Source: Defluviitaleaceae bacterium (GTDB lineage Bacteria; Bacillota; Clostridia; Lachnospirales; WRAX01). Taken from it: a stretch of DNA of 42,380 nt. Where the stretch lies: positions 1-42,380 of the forward strand of contig WQVZ01000007.1 of NCBI GenBank assembly GCA_009785595.1, in the 5' to 3' direction. Of the stretch, positions 31,727 through 37,027 are shown in pieces (the stretch's first letter is position 1; each line of letters begins with the position of its first letter). Position numbers and translations under genes: made by a program. The notes under the pieces are model-generated. The model was not told the DNA's origin and ran no database searches. It saw only the letters and a program-made list of their open reading frames with translations.

Positions 31727-32926
31727 TTAATCCACTAATGTGGGGTTAAAATCCTCGCGCCAAGGCAGGCCCCATTTGTTAAGTTCGGCCATAAATGGGT
31801 CTGGATCCATTTCTTCTACATTAAAGACACCGGCACCTTTCCAACGGCCGTCCATCATTAACATGGCACCTATCATGGCAGGTACGCCGGTGGTGTAAGA
31901 TATGGCCTGGCTGCCCACTTCGCGATAGCACTCTTGATGGTCGCAAATATTATACAAATAGTAATTTTTAGGTTGGCCGTCTTTTACGCCTTGGAAGATG
32001 CAGCCGATATTGGTTTTACCCACGGTGCGTGGCCCAAGGCTGGCAGGGTCAGGCAACACAGCTTTAAGAAATTGCAGAGGAACAATGTCTTGTCCCTGGA
32101 ATTTTATGGGTACAATAGAGGTCATTCCCACATTTTCTAAGCAGCGCAGGTGGGTTATATAACTTTGACCAAAGGTCATAAAGAAGCGGATGCGCTTGAT
32201 GCCGTTAATGTTTTTGGCCAAACTTTCCAGCTCTTCATGATACAATAAATACATATCTTTTTGGCCAACTTCTGCAAAGTTATATTCGCGCTTAATCTCC
32301 AGCGGCGCGGTTTCTATCCACTGGCCTTTTTCCCAATACCTGCCGTTAGATGTAATTTCTCGGATGTTAATTTCCGGATTAAAATTGGTGGCGAAGGGAT
32401 AGCCATGGTCGCCGCCGTTGGCGTCCAAAATGTCAATATAATGTATCTCGTCAAAATGGTGCTTTGCGGCATATGCGCTGAAAACGCCGGTGACACCGGG
32501 GTCGAAGCCGCAGCCTAGCAAGGCCATAATGCCCGCATCCTTAAAGCGTTGCTGGTAGGCCCACTGCCAGGAATACTCGAATTTTGCGGTGTCCAGCGGC
32601 TCATAATTGGCGGTGTCCAAATAATTGGTTTTGGTAGCCAAGCAAGCGTCCATGATTGTTAAATCCTGGTAAGGCAGCGCCAAATTTATCACCAAATCAG
32701 GCTTGAAGCTATTTATCAAGGCAATAACCTCGTCAGTATTGTCTGCATCTACCTGTGCTGTGTGTATTATTGTGCGGCCGCCATCCAGCTTGGCTTTAAG
32801 CTCATCACAGCGAGCTTTGGTACGGCTGGCAATCATAATTTCGCTGAAAACATCGGGGTTTTGGCAGCATTTGTGGATGGCCACACTGGCCACGCCCCCT
32901 GCGCCTATTATCAGTGCTTTTCCCAT
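31727..32926 (-). CDS. Carboxynorspermidine/carboxyspermidine dehydrogenase (saccharopine dehydrogenase family)
   Basis: 399 residues. The N-terminal Rossmann motif is ALIIGAGGVASVAIHK; GCGFDPGVTGVFSAYAAKH and DANGGDHGYPFATNFNPEINIREI are the signature of the CANSDH/CASDH branch. It couples putrescine (or diaminopropane) with aspartate semialdehyde and NADPH to give carboxyspermidine (or carboxynorspermidine), the substrate of the nspC product. The C-terminus (WRGAGVFNVEEMDPDPF-like) is complete. AGGAGG precedes the ATG. Which diamine it prefers cannot be read from sequence; since speB should make putrescine, carboxyspermidine is the likelier product. Confidence 0.93.
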   Translation of the reverse strand: MGKALIIGAGGVASVAIHKCCQNPDVFSEIMIASRTKARCDELKAKLDGGRTIIHTAQVDADNTDEVIALINSFKPDLVINLALPYQDLTIMDACLATKTNYLDTANYEPLDTAKFEYSWQWAYQQRFKDAGIMALLGCGFDPGVTGVFSAYAAKHHFDEIHYIDILDANGGDHGYPFATNFNPEINIREITSNGRYWEKGQWIETAPLEIKREYNFAEVGQKDMYLLYHEELESLAKNINGIKRIRFFMTFGQSYITHLRCLENVGMTSIVPIKFQGQDIVPLQFLKAVLPDPASLGPRTVGKTNIGCIFQGVKDGQPKNYYLYNICDHQECYREVGSQAISYTTGVPAMIGAMLMMDGRWKGAGVFNVEEMDPDPFMAELNKWGLPWREDFNPTLVD

Positions 32927-32937
32927 AATAATTCCTC

Positions 32938-33792
32938 CTATGACAGTATTAATAGCAATTCTCTTAGTATCTTACAAGCCGTGGCAGTACTGATGCCAGT
33001 TGTATCAAGATGTGGTGCCAGTTCCACCAGGTCACATCCTACTACATTCAGTTGCTTCAGATGCATCATGGCGGCCAAAAGTTCCGTAAATGTGACGCCG
33101 CCGGCTTCCGGGGTGCCCGTGCCGGGAAATGCCGATGGATCCAGTACATCCAGGTCTAGGGTAAAGTACACAGGCGCGTCACCCAGTGATTTAGCCATAT
33201 TGGCGAAGCCTATCAGGCCAAATTTCTCCAGTGCAGCATGGGTTTTCGCCCACTCAAACTCCTCTTTAGCACCAGAGCGTATGCCAAATTGGTATATTTT
33301 GCCATCACCCAAAATGTCGTGGCAACGGCGTATAACCGTGGCGTGAGACAAGTTCTGGCCCAGATATTCTTCCCGCAAATCCGCATGGGCATCCAGATGG
33401 ATTATGTGCAAATTAGGGTATTTTGCGGCGGCGGCACGTATAGCACCAAGGGTCACAAGATGTTCGCCGCCCAGCATTATGGGTATTTTGTCATCAGCCA
33501 AAATTTGAGCCGTTGCGGCCTCAACAGCATCCAGTGCAGGCTCTGGGCGGCCAAAGGGCAACTCCAGCTCACCGGCATCATATATTGCGGCATCTTCAAG
33601 GTCAGCATCCTGATACGGCGAGTATGTTTCTAAACCATGCGAATCATGTCGCATAGCCGCAGGACCAAAACGTGCACCTGGACGATTAGAGGTTGTAGAG
33701 TCATAAGGCGCGCCAAAAATCACAATTTTTGCCTCATCATATGGATCATCACAACCTAAAAAGGTTTGCATATTGCCGGTTTTGTTAAGCAT
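32938..33792 (-). CDS. speB: Agmatinase family ureohydrolase
   Basis: 284 residues. The binuclear manganese ligands are His111 (GGEHLVTLG), Asp134, His136 and Asp138 (HLDAHADLR), and the pair in LDLDVLDPS. It hydrolyses agmatine to putrescine and urea; N1-aminopropylagmatine is an alternative substrate in some bacteria. It overlaps the end of speE by 8 bases. Together with speA it provides the arginine-agmatine-putrescine route. Confidence 0.95.
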   Translation of the reverse strand: MLNKTGNMQTFLGCDDPYDEAKIVIFGAPYDSTTSNRPGARFGPAAMRHDSHGLETYSPYQDADLEDAAIYDAGELELPFGRPEPALDAVEAATAQILADDKIPIMLGGEHLVTLGAIRAAAAKYPNLHIIHLDAHADLREEYLGQNLSHATVIRRCHDILGDGKIYQFGIRSGAKEEFEWAKTHAALEKFGLIGFANMAKSLGDAPVYFTLDLDVLDPSAFPGTGTPEAGGVTFTELLAAMMHLKQLNVVGCDLVELAPHLDTTGISTATACKILRELLLILS

Positions 33793-34630
33793 TGTTTAGC
33801 ATCTCCGTCACGTAATTTGGCAGGGCAAAGGCTCCGCGATGCAGCCGGGTGTTGTAATAATGAGTTTTGATACCCAAAGTATTCCAATCGTCTATATCAT
33901 CCGTCGCAGACGCAAGAGTTTTTGAGCCAAAGCCAAAAAGCCAATGGCCGCTTGGGTACGTAGGAATGTGGGCCTGGTAGGCAGAAGCGATTGGAAAAGC
34001 CCCTTTAAGCTTGCCATAAGCACGGGCCATAGCAGCGGCATCATTAGCATAATATGGGCTGCCCAACTGGTTGACGCATATACCATTTTCACGCAACCCA
34101 TTGTAGCAATTTCCATAAAATTCTTTGGTAAATAGGCCCTCTCCGGGACCGAAAGGATCAGTAGAATCTACAATAATAAGGTCGTAGGCGTCTTGTGCTT
34201 TGCGGATGAATTTCAAGCCGTCTTGATAATATATGGTAAGGCGGCTATCATCCAAAGCACCGGCAGTTTGGGGCAAATATTCTTTACACACAGTTACAAC
34301 TTGCGGGTCAATCTCTACCATATCCATTCTGGTTATACCGGGATATCTGGCCAATTCGCGCACAACACCGCCGTCCCCGGCGCCAATAATTAAAACCGAT
34401 TGTATGCCAGGATTGATGGCCATTGGCACATGTACCATCATTTCGTGATATGCAAATTCGTCTTTTTCTGTCATCATCATTACGCCGTCCAACACAAGAA
34501 AACGGCCAAATTCCGGCGAATCGAAGATATCAATGCGCTGGAATTCGCTTTGCGCGCCGTATAAATGGCGACTGACCTTGATGGACATTCTTGCATTTTC
34601 TGTGTGATTCTCAGAGAACCATAGCTCCAT
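33785..34630 (-). CDS. speE: Spermidine synthase
   Basis: 281 residues, standard length. It transfers an aminopropyl group from decarboxylated S-adenosylmethionine to putrescine (or agmatine). An N-terminal beta domain is followed by the Rossmann domain with YHEMMVHVPM, IGAGDGGVVREL and VDSTDPFGPGEGLF, the canonical PAPT motifs. It lies 13 bases after speA. The decarboxylated SAM would come from speD in the same operon. Confidence 0.96.
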   Translation of the reverse strand: MELWFSENHTENARMSIKVSRHLYGAQSEFQRIDIFDSPEFGRFLVLDGVMMMTEKDEFAYHEMMVHVPMAINPGIQSVLIIGAGDGGVVRELARYPGITRMDMVEIDPQVVTVCKEYLPQTAGALDDSRLTIYYQDGLKFIRKAQDAYDLIIVDSTDPFGPGEGLFTKEFYGNCYNGLRENGICVNQLGSPYYANDAAAMARAYGKLKGAFPIASAYQAHIPTYPSGHWLFGFGSKTLASATDDIDDWNTLGIKTHYYNTRLHRGAFALPNYVTEMLNNA

Positions 34631-34643
34631 ATTTCACCTCACT

Positions 34644-36092
34644 CTACAACAATACATATAGTTGTTCCACAGCCTCATTCTGGGTGCCTGTTAGTGTGCA
34701 ACCTTTGGCCTTAGCATAGCGGATATAGTCTATTGCCGACTTGGTAACTTGCTCACCTGGGGCAATTATGGGTATGCCCGGTGGATAGCACATTACAAGC
34801 TCGACAGAAACGCGAGATACACTATTTTCCAAGGACACTAATTGTTTTTCTGCATAAAATGCCTCTTGAGGTGAACATGACACAATAGGATGTATATATT
34901 CATAATCTAACATACCTTGGGGATTTCGCCTGTGCAGCCTGTAAATTTCTGACAAAGCCGAGCAAAGCCGCTCTATATCCTTCATTCTATCGCCCACAGA
35001 CACATAGGCCAAAAAATTGCCTATGTCCCCCATTTCTATTTGTATGTCATATTCGTCCCGCAGTATATCGTACACTTCACGTCCGGCCAAACCGGTTTTA
35101 AGGGTATTGACGGACAGCTTTGTAGCATCAAAATCATAAATACTGTCGCCGTTAATAATCTCTGCACCAAAGGCATAAAATCCGCCTATTTGGTTTATTT
35201 CTTCTCGGGCATATGCGGCCATTTTACCCACAGTTTCAAAAATTTCTACGCCATTAAGTGCTAAATTTTTACGACTAATGTCCAGGGAAGACATCAGTAA
35301 ATATGATGCCGAGGTGGTTTGTATTAAATTAATGATTTGTCGTACATATGCAGCATTCGGTTTAACACCAAGTAGCAAAAAAGAACTTTGCGTAAGGCTG
35401 CCACCGCTTTTATGCATGCTAACCGCAGCCATATCTGCTCCTGCCGCCATGGCAGATATGGGCAGGCCTCGGCCAAAGCTAAAATGGGTGCCATGGGCCT
35501 CGTCCACCAACACCAGCATATTGCGGGCATGAGCCATCTTTACAACTGCCGGCAAATTGCTGCAAATACCATAATACGTAGGGTTGTTGAGGAGAATGGC
35601 CACAGCATCAGGATTCGCATCCATAGCTTGCTCTATATCTTGAAGCTTCATGCCCATAGAAATGCCTAGATCCGGCTGCAATCCGGGGTCGATATAGCAA
35701 GGTATGGCACCGGAAAGTATCAGGCCGGTTAGGACACTTTTATGGACATTACGGGTCAGCAATATTTTGTCTCCAGCTTTGCAGGCAGACATAATCATAG
35801 CTATAACAGAAGATGTGGTGCCGCTTACCATAAGGAAAGCCTGGGCAGCACCAAAAGCATCGGCGGCAATTTCTTCGGCCTCCTTAATTACAGAAACGGG
35901 GTGGCCTAAAAAATCCAGACTTTTCATGGAGTTAACGTCCAGGGACATGGCCTTTTCGCCTAAAAACGCCGTAAGCTCTGGACTGCCTTTGCCTCGCTTG
36001 TGACCCGGCACATCAAAAGGCACAATACGCTTGTCTTTCATGTTTTCCAGAGCTTCCATAATAGGTGCCCGTTGTTGCAGCTTTATGTTCAT
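34644..36092 (-). CDS. speA: Orn/Lys/Arg decarboxylase family, probable arginine decarboxylase
   Basis: 482 residues, fold I PLP enzyme of the short Bacillus SpeA type (about 490). The PLP lysine is Lys228 in SMHKSGGSLTQSS; DVPGHKRGKGSPEL near the N-terminus and VDEAHGTHF (PLP pyridine Asp) are diagnostic. Substrate could be Arg, Lys or Orn; the adjacent agmatinase argues for arginine. It is the second gene of the polyamine operon, 19 bases after speD. Confidence 0.9.
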   Translation of the reverse strand: MNIKLQQRAPIMEALENMKDKRIVPFDVPGHKRGKGSPELTAFLGEKAMSLDVNSMKSLDFLGHPVSVIKEAEEIAADAFGAAQAFLMVSGTTSSVIAMIMSACKAGDKILLTRNVHKSVLTGLILSGAIPCYIDPGLQPDLGISMGMKLQDIEQAMDANPDAVAILLNNPTYYGICSNLPAVVKMAHARNMLVLVDEAHGTHFSFGRGLPISAMAAGADMAAVSMHKSGGSLTQSSFLLLGVKPNAAYVRQIINLIQTTSASYLLMSSLDISRKNLALNGVEIFETVGKMAAYAREEINQIGGFYAFGAEIINGDSIYDFDATKLSVNTLKTGLAGREVYDILRDEYDIQIEMGDIGNFLAYVSVGDRMKDIERLCSALSEIYRLHRRNPQGMLDYEYIHPIVSCSPQEAFYAEKQLVSLENSVSRVSVELVMCYPPGIPIIAPGEQVTKSAIDYIRYAKAKGCTLTGTQNEAVEQLYVLL

Positions 36093-36111: not shown

Positions 36112-36900
36112 TCAATCACCAGCAAAGACATTTGTGCCGCTAAAAATCTCAATCATCTCCCGCCGCAGGCTGTTGGTTATGTCCAGCCTGGTTTTGGGTT
36201 TTATTTCATATACATCGCTGTTAAACAAATAGTTTTGCAAATCAACTTCTTTTATAAGCATTTTTGTGTGGAAAATGTTGTGCTGGTACACGTTCATGTC
36301 AATGGCGTCATATTTGTCCATGGTTTTTTCGTCTATATAATCCTGGATGGACGTAAGCTCGTCATCCCTAAATATTTTTTCACCCTGCATATCCCGCGTA
36401 AAGCCTCGCACCCGATAATCCATGGTGATAATATCAGAATCAAAACTGCCGATAAGATAGTCCAGAGTGGACAGGGGGGTTATTTCACCGCAGGTAGATA
36501 CGTCAATATCCACCCTAAAGGTGGCAATGGAGGTCTCCGGATGAAATTCCGGATAAGTATGCACGGTAACATGGCTTTTGTCCAGATGCCCCGCAATAAT
36601 TTCCGGCACGGCCTGTACGGTTTTTTCGCATTTACGTAAGCTTTTTTCGGCAATTAAAAAATTAACCGAAGAGCCTTGGGGGTCATAATCCTGCTTGGAC
36701 ACAGAAAGAACCGTAGCACCTATCATTTTTGTAAGCTCGTGCAGTATGCCCGTCAAGCGTTCGGAATTATACTGCTCTGCAATATAGGCGATATAGTCCC
36801 TTTGCTCCCTTTGGCCCTTAGCATAACATATGTCATAAATGTTAAAACCAAGAGACTTGGTAAGGTTATTAAAACCGTACAGCTGCAATTTGTTCTGCAT
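36112..36900 (-). CDS. speD: S-adenosylmethionine decarboxylase proenzyme, E. coli type
   Basis: 262 residues, like the 264-residue E. coli enzyme and unlike the short archaeal/Bacillus form. Highly conserved segments: YGFNNLTKSLGFNIYDICYA, the self-cleavage site HLDKSHVTVHTYPE (Lys108-Ser109, Ser becoming pyruvoyl), STCGEITPL and DYRVRGFTRD. It makes decarboxylated SAM for speE. ATG 36900 is preferred over 36906 because GGAGG is then 9 bases away (3 otherwise) and the start matches E. coli. It is first in the operon, behind a leader with an internal terminator (36935-36969). Confidence 0.95.
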   Translation of the reverse strand: MQNKLQLYGFNNLTKSLGFNIYDICYAKGQREQRDYIAYIAEQYNSERLTGILHELTKMIGATVLSVSKQDYDPQGSSVNFLIAEKSLRKCEKTVQAVPEIIAGHLDKSHVTVHTYPEFHPETSIATFRVDIDVSTCGEITPLSTLDYLIGSFDSDIITMDYRVRGFTRDMQGEKIFRDDELTSIQDYIDEKTMDKYDAIDMNVYQHNIFHTKMLIKEVDLQNYLFNSDVYEIKPKTRLDITNSLRREMIEIFSGTNVFAGD

Positions 36901-36934
36901 GGGCATGTTCCTCCAGCATTTAATTAATAATGTT

Positions 36935-36969
36935 AAAAAACCCCAGTGGTCATAATTCTACCACCAAGG
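36935..36969 (-). terminator. Intrinsic terminator inside the speD leader (attenuator)
   Basis: Minus-strand stem CCTTGGTGGT (36969-36960), loop AGAATTATG, ACCACTGGGG (36950-36941), then TTTTTT (36940-36935). All ten positions pair (three are G-U). It lies between the promoter and the speD ribosome site, so read-through is needed for operon expression. An upstream AGGTGGC (about 36991) can pair with GTTGCCT, which overlaps the left arm of the terminator, a possible antiterminator. Confidence 0.65.
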
Positions 36970-36998
36970 CAACACAAAATCAGTCCAACCGCCACCTA

Positions 36999-37027
36999 AT
37001 TATAAAACACTCAACAATTTCTGTCAA
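36999..37027 (-). promoter_or_regulatory. Consensus sigma-A promoter of the polyamine operon
   Basis: Minus strand TTGACA (37027-37022), exactly 17 bases, TATAAT (37004-36999): full match to consensus. The start is near 36992, giving an 86-92 base leader. It is back to back with the ferredoxin promoter. Confidence 0.85.

Follow-up and report, generated by a model that had tools for sequence, protein, structure and literature searches.

To our knowledge, RNA control of polyamine synthesis genes has seldom been shown. One case is the spermidine riboswitch, a SAM-I variant that works via a terminator (PMC10853860), and a 79-nt Hfq-associated peak was reported for the speD leader in Bacillus subtilis, the RNA being either derived from that region or of unknown kind (PMC3574147). 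At another gene, rimP (ylxS), the leader contains a conserved terminator stem that has been argued to be protein-controlled (PMC2965389). We found no published description of a speD attenuator in the open-access literature searched. Here, we analyzed a 42,380-nt stretch of DNA from a Defluviitaleaceae bacterium (contig WQVZ01000007.1, positions 1 to 42,380; hereafter, the window), in which a polyamine operon beginning with speD is preceded by a promoter, a short leader, and a terminator. With moderate confidence, we interpret this arrangement as a promoter-proximal speD attenuator that lacks an aptamer, appears to be leaky, and was probably retained from a long leader of the RF02440 type.

A consensus promoter and a borderline terminator precede the polyamine operon

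The original prediction placed a full-consensus promoter (TTGACA-17-TATAAT) on the minus strand, followed by a short leader and a terminator with a 10-bp stem and six T residues ahead of speD. Both elements were confirmed, with a leader of ~22 nt before the hairpin (Table 1). The promoter matched the consensus at 12 of 12 positions and was the only one to do so among 23 sites scanned between 33000 and 40000. The GGAGG motif lies 20 nt past the T-run and is followed by speD, and no minus-strand promoter candidate was seen between the terminator and speD; operon transcripts from the 12/12 promoter must therefore read through the terminator. All five polyamine genes behind the terminator lie on the minus strand, and a ferredoxin-like gene is oppositely oriented.

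The speD gene contains two in-frame ATG codons (36906 and 36900), the second of which is 9 nt from GGAGG, is better spaced, and agrees with the start used by relatives in the sister genus g4. Two genomes of g4 have a gene for a GNAT-like acetyltransferase between speD and the decarboxylase gene (L003:2300-2745 and L005:2395-2850).

Table 1. Features of the speD promoter region and the polyamine operon in the window
Feature	Position	Strand	Basis
Sigma-70 promoter of the polyamine operon, TTGACA (37027-37022), 17-nt spacer, TATAAT (37004-36999)	36999..37027	(-)	12/12 consensus
+1 (G), putative transcription start	36992	(-)	seventh base after the -10 box, usual spacing
Short leader GCGGTTGGACTGATTTTGTGTTG	36970..36992	(-)	homologous to sister-genus GCAGATAGACTGG..; 68% identical to that of L003 (p 0.002 by shuffling)
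Intrinsic terminator, stem CCTTGGTGGT (36969-36960)/ACCACTGGGG (36950-36941), 9-nt loop AGAATTATG, T6 (36940-36935)	36935..36969	(-)	sequence, folding, conservation
GGAGG, speD ribosome-binding site	36910..36914	(-)	sequence
speD, E. coli-type S-adenosylmethionine decarboxylase, first operon gene	36112..36906	(-)	TIGR03331 389 bits, cut-off 255.8
Orn/Lys/Arg-type PLP decarboxylase	34644..36092	(-)	lysine/arginine/ornithine decarboxylase matches below cut-off
speE, spermidine synthase	33785..34630	(-)	NF002010 and TIGR00417 above cut-off
speB, agmatinase	32938..33792	(-)	TIGR01230 above cut-off
Saccharopine-dehydrogenase-like, probable carboxy(nor)spermidine synthase	31727..32926	(-)	NF043000 below cut-off (402 bits, cut-off 800)

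The 10 bp of the terminator stem include three G-U pairs, and the hairpin was missed by a simple terminator scan because of its 9-nt loop. The 58-nt leader folded at -15.2 kcal/mol, a value that 9 of 200 shuffled sequences matched (z -1.97); judged by fold energy against shuffles, the window hairpin on its own is only modest. Its d'Aubenton-Carafa-type score lay close to zero (-4.0 or 1.5, according to which base pair was counted), and by this score it is a weak, borderline terminator. We consider it to be more than a product of chance because it is unique among the perfect promoters surveyed in this genome and because the layout is kept in most speD genomes of the family (see below). Genome-wide, the perfect TTGACA-N17-TATAAT pattern occurred at 35 sites, and a reversed control pattern at none. 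In this survey of perfect sites, the downstream DNA was read for 30 of the 35, and only speD showed a short leader, then a strong hairpin plus T-run, and then a ribosome-binding site (1/30). The possibility that the promoter-leader-terminator layout is a general habit of this genome was rejected on the same count.

A pyrG-type reiterative-transcription attenuator has at least three identical bases at +1 that are complementary to the left arm of the terminator; the expected start in the window, GCGG, has no such run, and slippage of this type was rejected. A leader-peptide attenuator was also rejected, since the two small ORFs in the window leader (GTG-TTG-CCT-TGG-TGG-TAG and ATG-ACC-ACT-GGG-GTT-TTT-TAA) were found, by reading, to have no counterpart in the leaders of relatives. 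An Rfam scan of the window returned tRNA only and no known SAM or spermidine riboswitch aptamer. With ~22 nt before the hairpin (~6-8 nt in two genera), no Rfam match, and no aptamer common to the genera, the idea of a new riboswitch in the window was not supported.

The leader and the hairpin are conserved at speD in the family

We searched 16 genomes of the GTDB family, 12 of which contained speD. The combination of a consensus promoter, a short leader, and a terminator was detected in 9 of these 12 genomes (L002-L007, L010, L011, and L031; genera g1, g4, g10, and g11), although the nine leaders are phylogenetically non-independent. The terminator was absent at the remaining three speD genes (L008, L009, and L013). 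The original prediction had named relatives without the terminator, or leaders without compensatory changes, as evidence against it; the former exist in the minority of the family just given, and compensatory changes in homologous speD leaders were few. A consensus or near-consensus promoter was present in all nine leaders, and with +1 set at base 7 downstream of the -10 box, all of the transcripts (9/9) would start R-C, the predicted 5′ ends being GCGGUUGGACUG in the window, GCARAUAGACUGG in g4, ACGAAAGG in g10, and RCGAAYGG in g11.

Pairwise comparison of the window with L003 revealed 68% identity in the leader and 59% in the hairpin (both p 0.002), whereas the flanks were at chance (p 0.4-0.7). 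The window hairpin was conserved in comparisons with each of L003-L005 (p 0.002-0.01), and across the pairwise comparisons the leader and hairpin were conserved while the upstream flank was at or near chance. Within genera, hairpins were 88-96% identical in g4 and the leader was 100% identical in g10; terminator loops were likewise conserved within genera, but their sequence varied between genera. Covariance models built from the g10/g11 leaders (R1) and from the g4 leaders (R2) matched their own source speD leaders at E 1e-14 or better in the 16 genomes and revealed no convincing further copies outside speD in these genomes. The next-best match (L196, E 2e-4) was rejected as it overlaps a tRNA-like region, and another was rejected as the antisense of the palindrome.

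Since the transcript start and the loop are conserved, we argue that the element is more than a bare terminator, which would need no conserved loop. A termination or antitermination protein might recognize the conserved 5′ end and the hairpin; the five g10 and g11 genomes show no variation in either the loop GAAGTA or the 5′ CGAA, and because just ~6-8 nt precede the stem in these genera, the RNA alone cannot build an antiterminator or contain an aptamer. The rimP leader, with its conserved terminator stem and no visible antiterminator, provides a precedent (PMC2965389). However, there is no candidate protein, and the loop sequence differs across genera. We therefore regard such a protein-controlled attenuator as possible but unlikely, while favoring it over direct sensing, the less likely of the two, as a mechanism beyond the bare terminator.

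A mutually exclusive antiterminator is clear in the sister genus only

The original prediction further proposed an antiterminator in which an AGGTGGC segment at the leader start pairs with GTTGCCT. These segments are complementary over seven pairs (three of them G-U) that overlap the base of the terminator, and a nascent RNA starting directly after the -10 box would adopt the pairing at -6.2 kcal/mol. However, AGGTGGC spans 36997-36991 and would be mostly untranscribed with +1 at 36992, as AGGTGG occupies positions 2-7 after the -10 box, which are normally not transcribed. In addition, AGGTGGC is kept in no relative, and the pairing is far weaker than the terminator (-15.2 kcal/mol). This antiterminator was not supported, and we consider it highly improbable. 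With +1 at 36992, the best alternative fold in the window reached about -4 to -5 kcal/mol, as compared with -15.2 kcal/mol for the terminator.

The presence of a mutually exclusive antiterminator differed by genus, being clear in g4, weak in the window, and absent in g10/g11. In g4, the 5′ GCARAUA pairs with UGUUUGC, and CU/GG pair with AG/CC in addition. All 11 pairs were intact in the three sequences (11/11), as opposed to 32-47% in a slid control, and the RNA folded at -8.3 to -8.9 kcal/mol without the right arm and at about -17 kcal/mol once the terminator was complete. This is complementarity and not covariation; as there are three sequences with one G-U to A-U change, covariation counts for g4 add nothing beyond the complete pairing.

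The pairing of the g4 5′ end with the loop, as an antiterminator or a pseudoknot, would also suit a very small riboswitch, in which a polyamine or SAM is bound jointly by the 5′ end and the terminator hairpin, with the terminator itself as the sensor. The downstream genes are polyamine genes, and a spermidine riboswitch that uses a terminator is known (PMC10853860). Conversely, the g4 pairing is kept neither in the window nor in g10/g11, the genera have no common core, known units of aptamer plus terminator are longer than this leader, and there is no Rfam match. A riboswitch of this size is distinctly improbable, and we give equally little credence to the idea that the 40-58-nt 5′ end and terminator hairpin alone constitute a polyamine-responsive transcription switch that arose when the ancestral speD leader lost a large riboswitch sensor.

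A rare terminator arm is shared with long speD leaders of other Clostridia

In many other Clostridia, a long RNA lies upstream of speD, the first 54 nt of which match Rfam RF02440 (SpF59, "ldcC RNA"); the Rfam model covers only these 54 nt and is classed there as an sRNA. The strongly conserved core of the long RNA measured 191-246 nt (TGACC to GACTC, 28 loci) and comprises a TGACC..GGTCA stem, a UUUUAUAAGU/ACUUGUGAAA helix, and a GAGU..ACUC stem. A terminator follows; its left arm frequently reads CTCAAGTG and is complementary to the ACUUG conserved in the RNA. Examples are L035:2667-2869, L032:2672-2867, and L061:2624-2843, along with about 50 more speD leaders (L032-L111, L142-L176). Among 30 RF02440 matches in the class, eight were located by speD, nine others by an Orn/Lys/Arg decarboxylase gene without a speD match, and one by carboxynorspermidine synthase. 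No RF02440 covariance match was detected in the window or in the 16 family genomes.

The motif CYCAAG was present in the left arm of 30 of 76 terminator-bearing speD leaders (27 of 53 among those with the long RNA) and in only 1 of 471 other terminators of the same loci. By reading, we found it in seven of the nine short-leader terminators, which have no upstream RNA; the exceptions are L005 and the window, where the left arm is CCTTGG. The nominal Fisher value for the 7/9 enrichment (3e-13) is overstated, as the sequences are related. A short leader with CTCAAG and without the long RNA was also found in L019, from another family of the order, and in L040, a Clostridia MAG. From this shared arm, we infer that the short leaders arose when a long leader lost its sensor. 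It is the terminator arm that carries this proposed descent, because similarity of the leaders to the long RNA was not significant overall (p 0.04-0.9). A more specific derivation, in which the leader is a remnant of the RF02440-type RNA at its 3′ end, was based on ATAGACT shared in g4 and was not accepted (p 0.04-0.1).

The rare arm common to the long-leader relatives would also be expected of an unregulated relic, that is, a leaky terminator remaining after loss of the long leader that sets expression and responds to nothing. The absence of RF02440 matches from the family, the three family members with no terminator at all, and the weak terminator score in the window point in the same direction. 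However, conservation of the leader start, the loop, and the arms exceeds what a relic would require, and the sister genus retains a precise antiterminator; this explanation appears improbable to us.

Two further features of clostridial speD loci were observed. In Anaerovibrio (L057, L071, L072, L077, L078, L083, and L084), speD has another conserved leader, CTTAAGAGGGAGAAATACCC.., with a CTCAGG terminator at its end and no Rfam match at the two loci scanned (L057 and L077). In many Lachnospirales and Clostridium species, speD genes have in common a near-identical start region, AGAAAGGYTGTGATGTTAGGGTTGGAA (L065, L086, L093, L098-L102, L109, L152, L160, L162, and L177), and the conservation of this region seems greater than that of a usual ribosome site.

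A model for the speD attenuator and its relation to known systems

An intrinsic terminator between the promoter and the first gene, with no other promoter, and its conservation at the same gene in 9 of 12 genomes support the attenuator reading: from this promoter, speD can be reached only by conditional or leaky read-through, and the element is conserved as well as specific to speD. In our model, RNA polymerase would start at the consensus promoter, synthesize ~22 nt, and then form the marginal terminator hairpin, at which some transcripts would stop in vivo at about 58 nt while the rest continue through speD and the four downstream genes. The efficiency of this stop would set, and perhaps regulate, expression of the polyamine operon. 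The most likely ancestor of the hairpin is the expression platform (the terminator) of an RF02440-type long speD leader, whose large sensor domain would have been lost in the family while the shortened terminator module stayed under selection. In g4, the first 13 nt of the transcript may form an antiterminator with the left arm and loop of the terminator; in the window, this type of pairing seems to have eroded, and the balance may be set by the leaky hairpin or by some other factor.

Across Clostridia, the leaders of speD form a series, with a long conserved RNA plus terminator at one end and, at the other, a bare terminator right where the transcript begins. This series allows a test of whether a riboswitch can still regulate once only its expression platform is left. 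The long RNA before speD and decarboxylase genes, modeled in part in Rfam, is a riboswitch candidate for polyamine genes in its own right.

Like the RF02440 (SpF59/ldcC RNA) leader, the element described here places a terminator before speD, and many members of both have the CYCAAG left arm; unlike it, neither the window nor the 16 family genomes match its 190-245-nt conserved upstream RNA. The spermidine riboswitch also places an intrinsic terminator ahead of polyamine genes (PMC10853860), but it has a full SAM-I-like aptamer, whereas the window has a ~22-nt leader and none. The rimP (ylxS) leader precedes other genes, has another stem (GGGc..gCCC), and is widespread, whereas the short speD leader occurs in one family; in both, nonetheless, the first gene is preceded by a short, conserved terminator, without an aptamer and often without a visible antiterminator (PMC2965389).
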